From Oceanicoccus sagamiensis (lineage in GTDB: Bacteria > Pseudomonadota > Gammaproteobacteria > Pseudomonadales > Dasaniaceae): DNA of 64,000 nucleotides. The notes beneath the pieces are model-generated. The model saw only the letters and a list, made by a program, of their open reading frames with translations, had not been told where the DNA came from and did not search any database. The translations under genes were made by a program, and so were the position numbers. This document shows, piece by piece, positions 42,075 through 45,673 of the stretch; positions within the stretch are counted from its first letter, which is position 1; the number at the start of each line of letters is the position of its first letter. The DNA is taken from positions 868,001 to 932,000 of the forward strand of contig NZ_CP019343.1 of assembly GCF_002117105.1 (NCBI RefSeq), read 5' to 3'.

Positions 42075-42113
42075 TCATTAGCCTATTTTTTTTAATTGAT
42101 CAGGAAGCCTATT

Positions 42114-44120
42114 ATGATGCAGTTTTTTATCGCGCTGATCGCGCTTAGTGTTGTTCTCCCCAGTTGGGGTGAAGAAAAGTTTTATTCACTCACCGTTGAT
42201 ACCCTGCCGGTTAATTTTAGCGGCAAGCCTGTTCAGGCTATGGCAATCAATCAGACCATTCCCGGCCCGGTACTGGAATTTACCGTGGGTGATACCGCCG
42301 TTATTACAGTGACCAACCGTCTGGACAGCGATGCCTCCATCCATTGGCATGGCTTACTGCTCCCCCAGGATCAGGATGGTGTGCCCTATTTAACCTACTT
42401 CCCGATTAAACCCGGCAAAAGTTTTACTTACCGCTTTCCCATCACCCATGCCGGTACTTATTGGTATCACTCCCATACCAATATCGATGAGCAGCGCGGC
42501 CAGTATGGTGCCATTATTATTCACCCCAAAGAAAAAGACCCTCGGCAGTATGATTACGACAAAGTAGTACAACTCTCCGACTGGACCGATGAAGACCCCA
42601 GAGCCGTTTTAAATAATCTGAAAAAATCCGGCGAATGGTATGCCTATAAAAAACACTCTGTAGTCAGCCTGCAAGGCTATCTGGAGCGAGATAAATTTGA
42701 TACCTGGCTTAGTAACCGCTGGCAACGAATGGAAGGTATGGATGTTAGCGATGTTGGCTACGATGCATTTCTCGCCAATGGTCAACAGCAATTACAGCTG
42801 CTACCCCAAGCCAAAGCCGGGGAAAAAGTGCGGCTGCGCTTAATTAACTCCGCCGCCTCCAGCTACTTTTCGATTGAGCAAAGCGACCAGCCTTTTATTG
42901 TGATTGCCGCCGACGGTATTGATGTGCAACCGGTTAAGGTTAAATCCTTATTAATGGGCATGGCTGAAACTTATGATGTCATTGTTACTATCCCAGCCAG
43001 CGGCGCGGTGAATATACATGCCAATAATATCGATGGCAGTGGTTATGCCGCTATTACAATCGGTTCCGGCCAAGCAGTACCAGCACCTCTGCCAAGCAAA
43101 CCTGATTTATACCAGGCCATGGATCATAGCAACCACAGCGCTCACAGCAGCCACCACACCGGGCATGCCATGCACCATCAGCCAGCTATTCGAGCACTCA
43201 GCTACCAGCAATTAAAAACCACCAGCCCGGTTAAATTTTCTGGCCCGCTAAGGGAGATAAAACTCGACCTGACCGGCGATATGGAAAATTATAACTGGAG
43301 CTTTAATAACACTATTTTATCCAACGCCGATAAAATAAAAATTAACCGGGGCGAAGTGGTTCGTATGACATTTAATAACACCACCATGATGCGCCACCCC
43401 TTACACTTGCACGGCCACTTTTTTAAAGTGATTTCCGGCAATGGTGATTTCGATGTAATAAAACATACCGTTGATGTTGGGCCGATGGCGACAGTCACTA
43501 TTGAGTTTGCTGCCAATGCAGAAAAAGACTGGTTATTTCACTGCCATAATCTCTACCATGCTAAAACCGGTATGGCCCGGGTACTCCGTTACAGTGATTA
43601 CCAGGGCAACCCTGCCTTTATGAAAGCCAAAATGGCCAGCAATGAAATTATGGATACCGATGGCTACTGGCGTACTGATACCTCGCTTTACTCGGACTAT
43701 ATCAGCGGAAAAATCCGCTATAGCAATTATCGCTATGCACTGGAAGCCGAAGCGGAAAGATCCGGCTGGGAAGAGTCTGAAGCAGAAGTCGCAGCGCTCT
43801 ATCGTATTGATCAATGGACGCAACTTTATCTGGGCAGCCAATACGAGTGGGAAGATAGCGACTGGGAATATCAATTAGGTGTTCGTTACCATGCCCCCTT
43901 TAATATCGAACTGGATAGCTGGTTAAACGATGACAAAGAAATTCATATTGGCTTTGAAACCAGCTTTCAACTCACTACCCACTGGCAACTGGAACTGGAA
44001 GCCGACTCTGAAGGTGAGCACGGCGGTTTTCTGCAATGGCGTAACTCACCGGCTTATGCCATCGGTATAGGCAAGACCGATGATACCGATATTATGCTAG
44101 GAATTAGCGCAACTTTTTAA
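42114..44120 (+). CDS. copA: Multicopper oxidase (CopA family) with CopB-like C-terminal barrel domain
   Basis: 668 residues from ATG 42114 (AGGA upstream). A Sec-type signal peptide MMQFFIALIALSVVLPSWGE lacks the twin Arg usual for CopA. Copper ligands are in HWHGLLLPQDQDGVPY, YWYHSHTNIDEQRGQYG, RHPLHLHGHFF (about 420) and WLFHCHNLYHAKTGMARV (about 472-489). A His-rich loop (SNHSAHSSHHTGHAMHHQ, about 343-360) lies in the middle. The oxidase ends near 492. The remaining 175 residues alternate polar and hydrophobic positions, include EAEAERSGWEESEAEVAALY and YQLGVRYHAPFNIELDSWLN, and end in LGISATF, resembling part of outer-membrane CopB. Role: Cu(I) oxidation in the periplasm, perhaps tethered at the outer membrane. 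Confidence 0.87.
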   Translation: MMQFFIALIALSVVLPSWGEEKFYSLTVDTLPVNFSGKPVQAMAINQTIPGPVLEFTVGDTAVITVTNRLDSDASIHWHGLLLPQDQDGVPYLTYFPIKPGKSFTYRFPITHAGTYWYHSHTNIDEQRGQYGAIIIHPKEKDPRQYDYDKVVQLSDWTDEDPRAVLNNLKKSGEWYAYKKHSVVSLQGYLERDKFDTWLSNRWQRMEGMDVSDVGYDAFLANGQQQLQLLPQAKAGEKVRLRLINSAASSYFSIEQSDQPFIVIAADGIDVQPVKVKSLLMGMAETYDVIVTIPASGAVNIHANNIDGSGYAAITIGSGQAVPAPLPSKPDLYQAMDHSNHSAHSSHHTGHAMHHQPAIRALSYQQLKTTSPVKFSGPLREIKLDLTGDMENYNWSFNNTILSNADKIKINRGEVVRMTFNNTTMMRHPLHLHGHFFKVISGNGDFDVIKHTVDVGPMATVTIEFAANAEKDWLFHCHNLYHAKTGMARVLRYSDYQGNPAFMKAKMASNEIMDTDGYWRTDTSLYSDYISGKIRYSNYRYALEAEAERSGWEESEAEVAALYRIDQWTQLYLGSQYEWEDSDWEYQLGVRYHAPFNIELDSWLNDDKEIHIGFETSFQLTTHWQLELEADSEGEHGGFLQWRNSPAYAIGIGKTDDTDIMLGISATF

Positions 44121-44211: not shown

Positions 44212-44240
44212 TTGACAGCAATCTACCCGCTAATTACACT
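44212..44240 (+). promoter_or_regulatory. Sigma-70 promoter for the DUF1835 gene
   Basis: -35 TTGACA (44212-44217), 17-base spacer, -10 TACACT (44235-44240). Transcription would begin near 44247, at the first base of the structured leader. Confidence 0.65.
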
Positions 44241-44246
44241 GCCCAA

Positions 44247-44350
44247 AGGCTTGGTCAAAGCCTCTGTGTCCGCGGAAAGGGCTGCGCCCATGACCAGGTG
44301 AAACACACCTGTTTTTTGTTTCCCTTTTCTATCTGCCTGGCGGACACAGA
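44247..44350 (+). ncRNA. Attenuator-like structured leader with competing stems
   Basis: Two stems exclude each other. One pairs 44250-44257 (CTTGGTCA) with 44291-44298 (TGACCAGG); the other is a terminator hairpin CAGGTG/CACCTG (44295-44300 with 44306-44311) followed by six T. They share 44295-44298. Between the arms of the first is a GGGC-TGC-GCCC hairpin (44279-44289). An outer perfect 11-bp repeat TCTGTGTCCGC (44263-44273) / GCGGACACAGA (44340-44350) spans the terminator. The gene starts at 44372. This is the layout of a riboswitch or attenuator; I match it to no known class. Confidence 0.5.
44295..44317 (+). terminator. Intrinsic terminator inside the leader
   Basis: CAGGTG-AAACA-CACCTG and six T. 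It could also end the multicopper oxidase transcript, whose stop is 175 bases upstream, but the promoter at 44212 lies between them. Confidence 0.65.
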
Positions 44351-44371
44351 TACTTGGAAAGGGTAACGACC

Positions 44372-45673
44372 ATGACCGATAACTCCACAAGGGGTAATAC
44401 CCCATTTCGTCTTAATCTTGAGCAGCAAAAAAAGCGCGCCAAGGAATTATTGCGCGCCTATCAAGAAAATAAAGCTGAAGCCTTTGCACGCTTTAAACAA
44501 TCTCATCCCCAATACACTAACGAACAAGCAGACACAGCTCCTCGTCTAGCCGATGCGCAACTGGTGATTGCTCGTGAGCTAGGTGTTGCCAGCTGGACTA
44601 AGCTAAAACAACATATTGACGAGATGAGCAATAATCAGCGGCTGATTAAAACGCAACAGATAGCGCCAGACTCAGATTTAACAACACTGCATATCCGCTG
44701 TGGCACCGATATAGAAAACACCCTTAAAGAAGCCGGCTTTAGTGGCGCGTTTTTAGACTATAAGGACCCTGTCTGCCAGGGTCCCGTAGTAAAGTCCGAT
44801 CAATACCACCAAATACGCGCCGAGTTTATTGCCAAAGTCTATGGTGACTTAGTGAATTTATCCTACGAGGAAATCTATCAGGACAGCCTGGCTGAACAGC
44901 AAAGTATTCAAACTCTGGCCAATCACTATCAACGAGTCGTGTTATGGTTTGAGCATGATACCTTTGATCAATTATTACTGATCAAGCTACTAGCGGAACT
45001 GGCCAAATACCCACAACCCGCTGTGCTAGAAATCGTCTCTCCCAACCAGTTCCCCGGTACTGCTCGCTTTATCGGGCTGGGCCAATTACCCCCTGAAGCG
45101 ATTTATTTACTCTGGTCAAAACGTGAAACTATCACCAATGCACAACTACAACTTGGCACCGAAGCCTGGGATGCTTTATGCCAAGACTCGCCAGAGCAAC
45201 TGGCAGTATTAATGAAGCAACCCCACTGCCAACAACTCCCGCATCTGCCAGCAGCCATTCACCGGCACTTGCAAGAATTACCTGCCACGGACAATGGGCT
45301 GGGTTTAACCGAACAACTAACCCTGGAAATTTTAAAACAGCAAGCCCGCCCTTGCGGTCAGCTTTTTAAAGCACTAATGACCGTGTATGAGCCCTTGCCC
45401 TGGCTGGGTGATTTAATGTTTTGGCATATTGTAAAAGGTTTGGCCGAAGGGGATGAACCCTTAGTGCTTATTCAAGAGAATAATGAACAGCATTGGCCAA
45501 ACTATCATGCGGTCTTAAGTGAACAAGGGCTGGCAGTATTAAAGGGTGAGAGCGACTATCTGTCGTTTAGGCCTGATGCTTACTGGTTAGGGGGAGTTGA
45601 AATTAAACCAAAGGCAGCTAATTGGCGCTGGGATAAAAAAACTGCCCAGCCCAGGTGGGGATTTTCCGCTTAA
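44372..45673 (+). CDS. DUF1835-domain protein
   Basis: 433 residues from ATG 44372 (GGAAAGGG upstream). The first 75 residues (NLEQQKKRAKELLRAYQENKAEAFARFKQSHPQ ... LADAQLVIARELGVASWTKLKQHI) are a widespread N-terminal motif also seen ahead of ankyrin-repeat proteins. From about residue 95 (LHIRCGTDIENTLKEAGFSGAFLDYKDPVCQGPV) to about 300 is a DUF1835 domain, with a DUF3658-like end. Function of this domain is unknown. The leader upstream suggests regulated expression; LysE and GNAT genes follow on the same strand and may be co-transcribed. Confidence 0.85.
   Translation: MTDNSTRGNTPFRLNLEQQKKRAKELLRAYQENKAEAFARFKQSHPQYTNEQADTAPRLADAQLVIARELGVASWTKLKQHIDEMSNNQRLIKTQQIAPDSDLTTLHIRCGTDIENTLKEAGFSGAFLDYKDPVCQGPVVKSDQYHQIRAEFIAKVYGDLVNLSYEEIYQDSLAEQQSIQTLANHYQRVVLWFEHDTFDQLLLIKLLAELAKYPQPAVLEIVSPNQFPGTARFIGLGQLPPEAIYLLWSKRETITNAQLQLGTEAWDALCQDSPEQLAVLMKQPHCQQLPHLPAAIHRHLQELPATDNGLGLTEQLTLEILKQQARPCGQLFKALMTVYEPLPWLGDLMFWHIVKGLAEGDEPLVLIQENNEQHWPNYHAVLSEQGLAVLKGESDYLSFRPDAYWLGGVEIKPKAANWRWDKKTAQPRWGFSA

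Follow-up and report, generated by a model that had tools for sequence, protein, structure and literature searches.

Organization of the locus

The window, a 64,000-nucleotide stretch of Oceanicoccus sagamiensis (NZ_CP019343.1, positions 868,001–932,000 of the forward strand; coordinates below are relative to it), contains a gene for a 433-residue protein (44372–45673) preceded by a leader with several predicted pairings, all on the plus strand. The protein begins with a domain of four predicted helices without a Pfam family (N-domain, 44372–44629), followed by DUF1835 and the remainder (44672–45670), with a predicted fold resembling type IIA topoisomerase cores. Upstream lies a gene for a multicopper oxidase (42096–44120) with a long C-terminal extension that resembles a CopB-type outer-membrane part.

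A sigma-70-type promoter (44212–44240), with TTGACA at 44212–44217 and TACACT at 44235–44240 separated by 17 nucleotides, matches 10 of 12 consensus positions. As sole evidence this promoter is weak, because four promoter-like sites were found in 1.6 kb versus 2.1 expected. Many relatives show, by eye, a TATA-type -10-like box directly 5' of the first leader hairpin (P1), and in the window the predicted start of transcription, near 44247, coincides with the 5' edge of P1.

Folding and covariation identify P1 (44247–44263) as AGGCTT (44247–44252) paired with AAGCCT (44258–44263). Its loop, GGTCA (44253–44257), forms the 5' strand of a loop pairing, PK1, with TGACC (44291–44295) as the 3' strand; covariation and the comparison of own with swapped partners point to both. 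PK1 is the 5-bp heart of an 8-bp stem in which CTTGGTCA (44250–44257) is complementary to TGACCAGG (44291–44298), including one G-U pair. A second loop pairing, PK2, joins GTCCGC (44268–44273) to GCGGAC (44340–44345), which lies within the P3 hairpin loop, and is the 6-bp heart of an 11-bp repeat, TCTGTGTCCGC (44263–44273) being perfectly complementary to GCGGACACAGA (44340–44350). The core, GGAAAGGGCTGCGCCC (44274–44289), contains a GGGC/GCCC hairpin (44279–44282 with 44286–44289). It is followed by a terminator-like hairpin and T run (44295–44317), consisting of CAGGTGAAACACACCTG (44295–44311) and six T; three such elements were found versus 1.8 expected, so the hairpin alone does not stand above chance.

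Closest to the gene, the anti-Shine-Dalgarno strand CCCTTTTC (44322–44329) pairs with GGAAAGGG in the Shine-Dalgarno region (44356–44363), 8 nt 5' of the ATG, to form P4, for which there is covariation and folding evidence at both strands. P4 encloses P3 (44330–44352), where covariation and folding pair TATCTG (44330–44335) with CAGATA (44347–44352), and P4/P3 has a folding energy of -15.2 kcal/mol in the window. Only one of 200 shuffles folded better than the strand at 44241–44372 (z -2.84). Each element described in an initial annotation, from the promoter and the 8-bp stem to the terminator-like hairpin and the outer 11-bp repeat, was found in place by a sequence check.

Relatives of the leader

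A DNA similarity search with the leader found nothing beyond close kin, the DUF1835 protein yielded no relative in a protein-pattern scan of genome contigs, and in its own genome the leader is single-copy (the next of 14 matches in a DNA search had E 0.70). A DUF1835 protein search of 95 genomes gave a match in 11. The source genome and three more (G058, G001 and G092) carry core GGAAAGGGCTGCGCCC upstream of the gene (as AGAAAGGGCTGCGCCC in G092), with a complementary strand, GCGGAC or GCAGAC, ahead of the start codon. Within the order, 9 of 390 genomes contain the 15-base core, and a scan with GCRGAAAGGGCTGCGCCC, using one genome per species, gave at least 120 loci. Among the 131 exact cores listed, 102 had the N-domain within 400 nt downstream.

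For alignment we used 99 leader-plus-gene loci, less four (L052 and L092 as chance matches, L038 with its 5' end cut and L103 with no clear start). The remaining 95 gave 60 non-redundant leaders at less than 88% identity (A1), in which core identity is by construction, as the core was the search pattern. In loci found otherwise, the core hairpin is variable (e.g., GGGG-atgat-CCCC and GGAGG-ata-CCTCC). The 60 leaders were split by eye into A2 (17 leaders of the window type) and A3 (35 leaders), with L027, L031, L049, L056, L074, L076, L077 and L153 fitting neither. A further alignment, A6, holds 12 hand-chosen divergent leaders; left out of it were L164–L167, L192, L194, L196, L198, L201, L202, L204, L206 and L208, together with L197 and L203, which are doubtful.

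Among the matches listed, the leader occurs in Pseudomonas, Billgrantia, Thalassospira, Kiloniella, Azospirillum, Methylosinus, Pectobacterium, Acidobacteria and Gemmatimonadaceae, and further copies were found in Gemmatirosa and in Nonomuraea (Actinomycetota; E 1.3e-4 with covariance model R1). By these predicted matches, the phyla carrying the leader are Pseudomonadota, Acidobacteriota, Gemmatimonadota and Actinomycetota. Cyanobacteriota probably carry it too, as two cyanobacterial metagenome-assembled contigs (L118 and L124) contain it, with misbinning possible. On the first of these, a Komarekiella contig, a Group I intron (RF00028) lies close to the leader (L118:5482–5735).

Conserved architecture and covariation

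A common plan runs through the 60 leaders. P1, the PK2 5' strand GTCCGC, the core and the PK1 3' strand are followed by a variable linker. After the linker come the two strands of P4, which flank P3; the P3 loop supplies the PK2 3' strand, and the second P4 strand, which contains the Shine-Dalgarno site, is followed by the start codon. All six PK2 positions pair in 53 of the 60 leaders, and PK2 shows double-sided changes.

Pairing in each alignment exceeded that of slid controls. In A2, 91.6% of cells were paired versus 34.1%–49.5% when slid (96.1% in P3), and there were 12 double-sided pair changes versus 5.3 in shuffles, with none of 500 shuffles reaching 12; pairs changed on both sides comprised four of five in PK1, three of six in P3, two of six in PK2, two of eight in P4 and one of four in P1. 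In A3, 94.2% of cells were paired versus 25%–44%, and no shuffle out of 500 matched the covariation score; the three double-sided changes were not above shuffles (70 of 500 reached this number). The divergent A6 leaders had 90.8% of cells paired versus 41.7%–56.0%, with 10 double-sided changes (reached by 0 of 500 shuffles), three of the four P1 pairs changed on both sides, and changes on both strands of PK2 and P4. A blind all-diagonal scan of A6 for co-varying helices returned 10 rows, all within P4, PK2 or P1.

Own partners also paired better than swapped ones, in permutations that ignore relatedness, for PK1 (0 of 5,000 in the 60 leaders and 0 of 20,000 in A6) and for P4 (0 of 5,000 in the 60 leaders); by this method PK1 went undetected in 17 of the 60. 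Because the hearts of PK1 and PK2 are both conserved and co-varying, the leader stands well above chance. Comparison thus supports the family and its pairings, and the leader is almost certainly one copy of a family of structured cis-regulatory RNAs, judging by these sequence comparisons. The initial annotation's view that the promoter is followed by a leader with regulatory structure and long-range pairings is borne out, with homologous leaders and covariation found in relatives in three alignments.

That the stretch has no regulatory role, and is kept by common descent or as part of an upstream coding frame, is extremely improbable. Leaders and genes are homologous, so that joint inheritance with the N-domain is possible, but the pairings are kept though both strands change, and linker length varies widely. 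Overlap with a reading frame of at least 100 codons did not discriminate (25 of 27 unlinked versus 58 of 104 linked cores). One locus (G200; L028:1460–1800) has damage both in its PK2 strand, which reads GTCCAC, and in its gene, which has an early stop, as if leader and gene were decaying together.

Probable control of translation rather than termination

The initial annotation read the 8-bp stem as an antiterminator that blocks the terminator hairpin, and comparison does not uphold this reading. A transcription attenuator, in which the stem of 44250–44257 with 44291–44298 would block the terminator at 44295–44317, can be drawn in the window, where both elements are present and sterically exclusive. 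However, this stem is the conserved PK1, and the terminator-like hairpin recurs in only 2 of the 60 leaders, and the window accounts for one of these two; by eye it is absent from L015 and L016 (= L030 and L027), the nearest relatives by protein score. We found no conserved terminator competing with an upstream stem, and attenuation is accordingly very unlikely. Since the hairpin sits in the variable linker, translation, not attenuation, appears to be the conserved theme, and the hairpin is probably outside the conserved mechanism.

P4 occupies the Shine-Dalgarno site in every leader type examined, so a closed fold should stop initiation, and in 23 of the 35 A3 leaders the P4 helix reaches the start codon. 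Control of translation through P4 is quite probable on this pattern of predicted pairing. A P4 hairpin alone would bury the Shine-Dalgarno site, as in an RNA thermometer or a salt- or Mg-responsive leader with no specific partner. We consider such a leader improbable, given that a constant core and two loop pairings are superfluous for a simple melting hairpin and that the strict link to one domain (below) would be left without explanation.

An open state can also be drawn. In the window, CCCTTTTC is fully and equally complementary to the GGAAAGGG in the core and the GGAAAGGG of the Shine-Dalgarno region (-9.2 kcal/mol each). We note that this dual complementarity is weak evidence, because a purine-rich Shine-Dalgarno sequence makes pairing with the core likely anyway. 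An open nested fold, with the anti-Shine-Dalgarno strand paired to the core, has an energy of -40.6 versus -46.2 for the best fold, and the closed fold has -27.1, to which the loop pairings would add about -9.6 (PK2) and -5.4 (PK1) if pseudoknot penalties are ignored. As the energies of open and closed folds are comparable, it is conceivable that the RNA has two states of about the same stability.

The controlled protein and its neighborhood

The region containing DUF1835 (residues 101–433) is predicted to fold like type IIA topoisomerase cores (Foldseek E 4.7e-5; Z of roughly 12 across some 290 residues at 4 Å). The model suggests an arrangement of what we take to be TOPRIM and winged-helix domains. 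A sequence search of solved structures gave no convincing relative of the full protein or of the N-domain, and the window protein had no PADLOC match.

The N-domain comprises ~85 N-terminal residues with a consensus of about LNLEQQKKRAKELL...LADAQLVIAREYGFxSWPKLKAHI. No Pfam family covered this region in 16 proteins scanned, and the sole NCBIfam match over it was a sigma-factor stretch below threshold (L063, E 0.0012). AlphaFold predicts four helices (model mean pLDDT 78.1), and a fold search with the model returned nothing at E ≤0.001 and no Z ≥2, which does not imply a new fold. Seventeen aligned N-domains carry a net charge of +2 to +9.

Proteins downstream of the leader are mostly N-domain plus DUF1835. 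The N-domain is joined to ankyrin repeats in L063, L153, L076, L190 and L196, to a SAM methyltransferase in L171 and to a glyoxalase in L197 and L203 (by domain scan for L197). The L171 methyltransferase resembles mad2 in PADLOC, and two proteins (L165 and L166) have two tandem N-domains before DUF1835 with one leader.

Leader and N-domain occur together

When sampling started from the domain, covariance models detected the leader immediately 5' of the gene in 38 of 44 cases across three samples. These were 11 of 12 domain genes in 232 genomes of the class, 17 of 21 further domain genes in 249 genomes of the phylum (16 by R1 at E ≤0.02 and L192 by a second model, R2) and 10 of 11 on plasmid or second-chromosome records. 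The alignment behind R1 included two of the 44 (the own gene and G252), and two identical loci (L219 and L220) are both among them.

Domain genes without a leader match include G551, a weak domain match (E 5e-4) that is probably false, and L199, L205 (the gene of L018) and L019, which are N-domain genes with DUF1835 and no leader; L019, with a domain E of 1e-13, lies outside the three samples. Three further genes gave no model match but show traces by eye: a short core-like half in L197 and L203, and ACACTCGC/GCGAGTGT in L218 (Vibrio). In L197 and L203, TGCGCCC 5' of the ATG complements GGGCGCA of an upstream hairpin, perhaps a minimal version. Relatives of DUF1835 that lack the N-domain (L020–L022) have no leader. 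The leader, which the initial annotation had tied to DUF1835, thus tracks the preceding N-terminal domain, also before ankyrin or methyltransferase fusions.

Starting from the RNA, a domain gene follows 9 of 10 model matches in the 232-genome set and 6 of 7 in the 249-genome set. The two that do not (L170 and L215) lie within unrelated coding sequence and look like chance. These genome-wide R1 searches scored only 12–13 candidates per genome and missed divergent copies found by the gene-upstream R1 search. Exact-core matches without the domain (27, leaving L037 and L091 aside) scored 10 to 28 bits with R1, so the covariance score alone is weak evidence; in divergent leaders the evidence is gene-start position together with covariation. 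A strong leader with no N-domain behind it was found in Photorhabdus khanii (L037, 240–375; 63.9 bits), where the gene seems decayed. Comparison supports the link to one protein domain, with the exceptions named.

Candidate partners

Near-constant placement before the same domain suggests that domain and RNA regulate each other. From this link, the basic charge of the N-domain and the lack of pathway context, we infer an autogenous partner, the N-domain of the gene's own product, for which we see an even chance. Points against it are the absence of domain-specific co-evolution, the leaderless domain genes and the orphan leader L037. A mirror-tree test of 39 genes did not favor the N-domain (partial correlation with the RNA 0.23 versus 0.50 for the remainder); no domain-specific co-evolution is seen, because RNA distances track the rest of the protein more closely. 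Simple inheritance could also account for the link, the leader having stayed with the 5' part of the gene when its 3' part was exchanged.

The main rival is a small-molecule riboswitch, in which the core, PK1 and PK2 would be the aptamer and a ligand would close P4. The compact double loop-pairing, the near-constant core, copies across several phyla, the covarying structured domain in the 5' leader of A2, A3 and A6, and a predicted expression platform in the P4 that sequesters the Shine-Dalgarno site are all in keeping with it, and an N-domain that sensed the same ligand would account for the joint occurrence of RNA and domain. Yet model matches point to N-domain genes and not to pathway transporters or enzymes, the C-terminal parts share no evident pathway, and no link between the controlled genes and a single metabolic or transport pathway was found. 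A riboswitch therefore seems possible but less likely than control by the protein.

The initial annotation also pointed to a following exporter and acetyltransferase. These LysE and acetyltransferase neighbors are not adjacent to the gene in its three nearest leader-bearing relatives (L015–L017), and we rejected them as a clue to a ligand. By eye, no second gene recurs widely behind the controlled gene.

Our preferred explanation, a translational off-switch closed by the basic N-domain of the gene's own product, is one we would hold at about equal odds of being right or wrong as a whole. P1, PK1, PK2 and the P4/P3 hairpin would form, P4 would take up the Shine-Dalgarno sequence and translation would be shut, with the N-domain stabilizing the closed fold (autogenous repression). 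When the protein is scarce, the anti-Shine-Dalgarno strand would instead pair with the purine-rich core, and the ribosome site would be freed.

Relation to known RNAs

The family is apparently widespread and undescribed. At the gathering score, Rfam 15 gave no match over the leader in the window or in sets of 18, 20 and 10 loci, in line with the initial annotation's failure to find a known riboswitch class; below threshold, the best hits (E 1.3 for the window and 0.95 for seven short relatives) were to implausible families. The literature searched, which did not extend to a 2017 survey of 224 candidate RNAs and supplements, describes no such leader.

By its predicted pairings, the leader would act in the manner of autogenous leaders or of translational riboswitches, and is an unproven candidate member of either class. 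Autogenous ribosomal-protein leaders are structured, adjoin the gene of the binder, belong to one protein family and bury the translation start. The leader here is likewise structured, lies beside the gene of the presumed binder and buries the start, but what it accompanies is a domain that occurs in fusion with three or more unrelated C-terminal parts. The preQ1 and SAM-II riboswitch classes are pseudoknotted and sequester the Shine-Dalgarno sequence. Loop pairings and sequestration are shared with them, whereas sequence and layout differ, with no Rfam 15 match or pathway genes.

Two candidate RNAs described in part of the published record are also comparable. Passages in PMC2864571 present the rmf motif, a candidate leader proposed to bind the product of the gene it precedes and confined to Pseudomonas rmf genes; it shares the candidate self-binding role but is rmf-restricted, and Rfam searches gave no similarity here. 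The smtA motif, or Soda Lake RNA, is likewise a structured RNA 5' of a methyltransferase gene, but according to passages in PMC11109978 it exceeds 350 nt and occurs only in Thioalkalivibrio, and we set it apart by this description. Passages in PMC11109978, PMC8632094 and PMC2864571 mention neither DUF1835 nor ankyrin.

Implications

We tentatively suggest, at somewhat less than even chances, that leader and domain form a portable self-recognizing unit grafted onto unrelated effectors in at least four phyla, including the topoisomerase-like DUF1835, ankyrin repeats, a methyltransferase and possibly a glyoxalase-type domain. If these readings are true, a common bacterial regulatory RNA has so far gone unlisted and its likely partner domain is in hand, and an unnamed domain with its own leader heads otherwise unrelated proteins. 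The functions of the N-domain and of DUF1835 would then become directly testable, and an RNA element and a protein domain would shuffle as one regulatory module.
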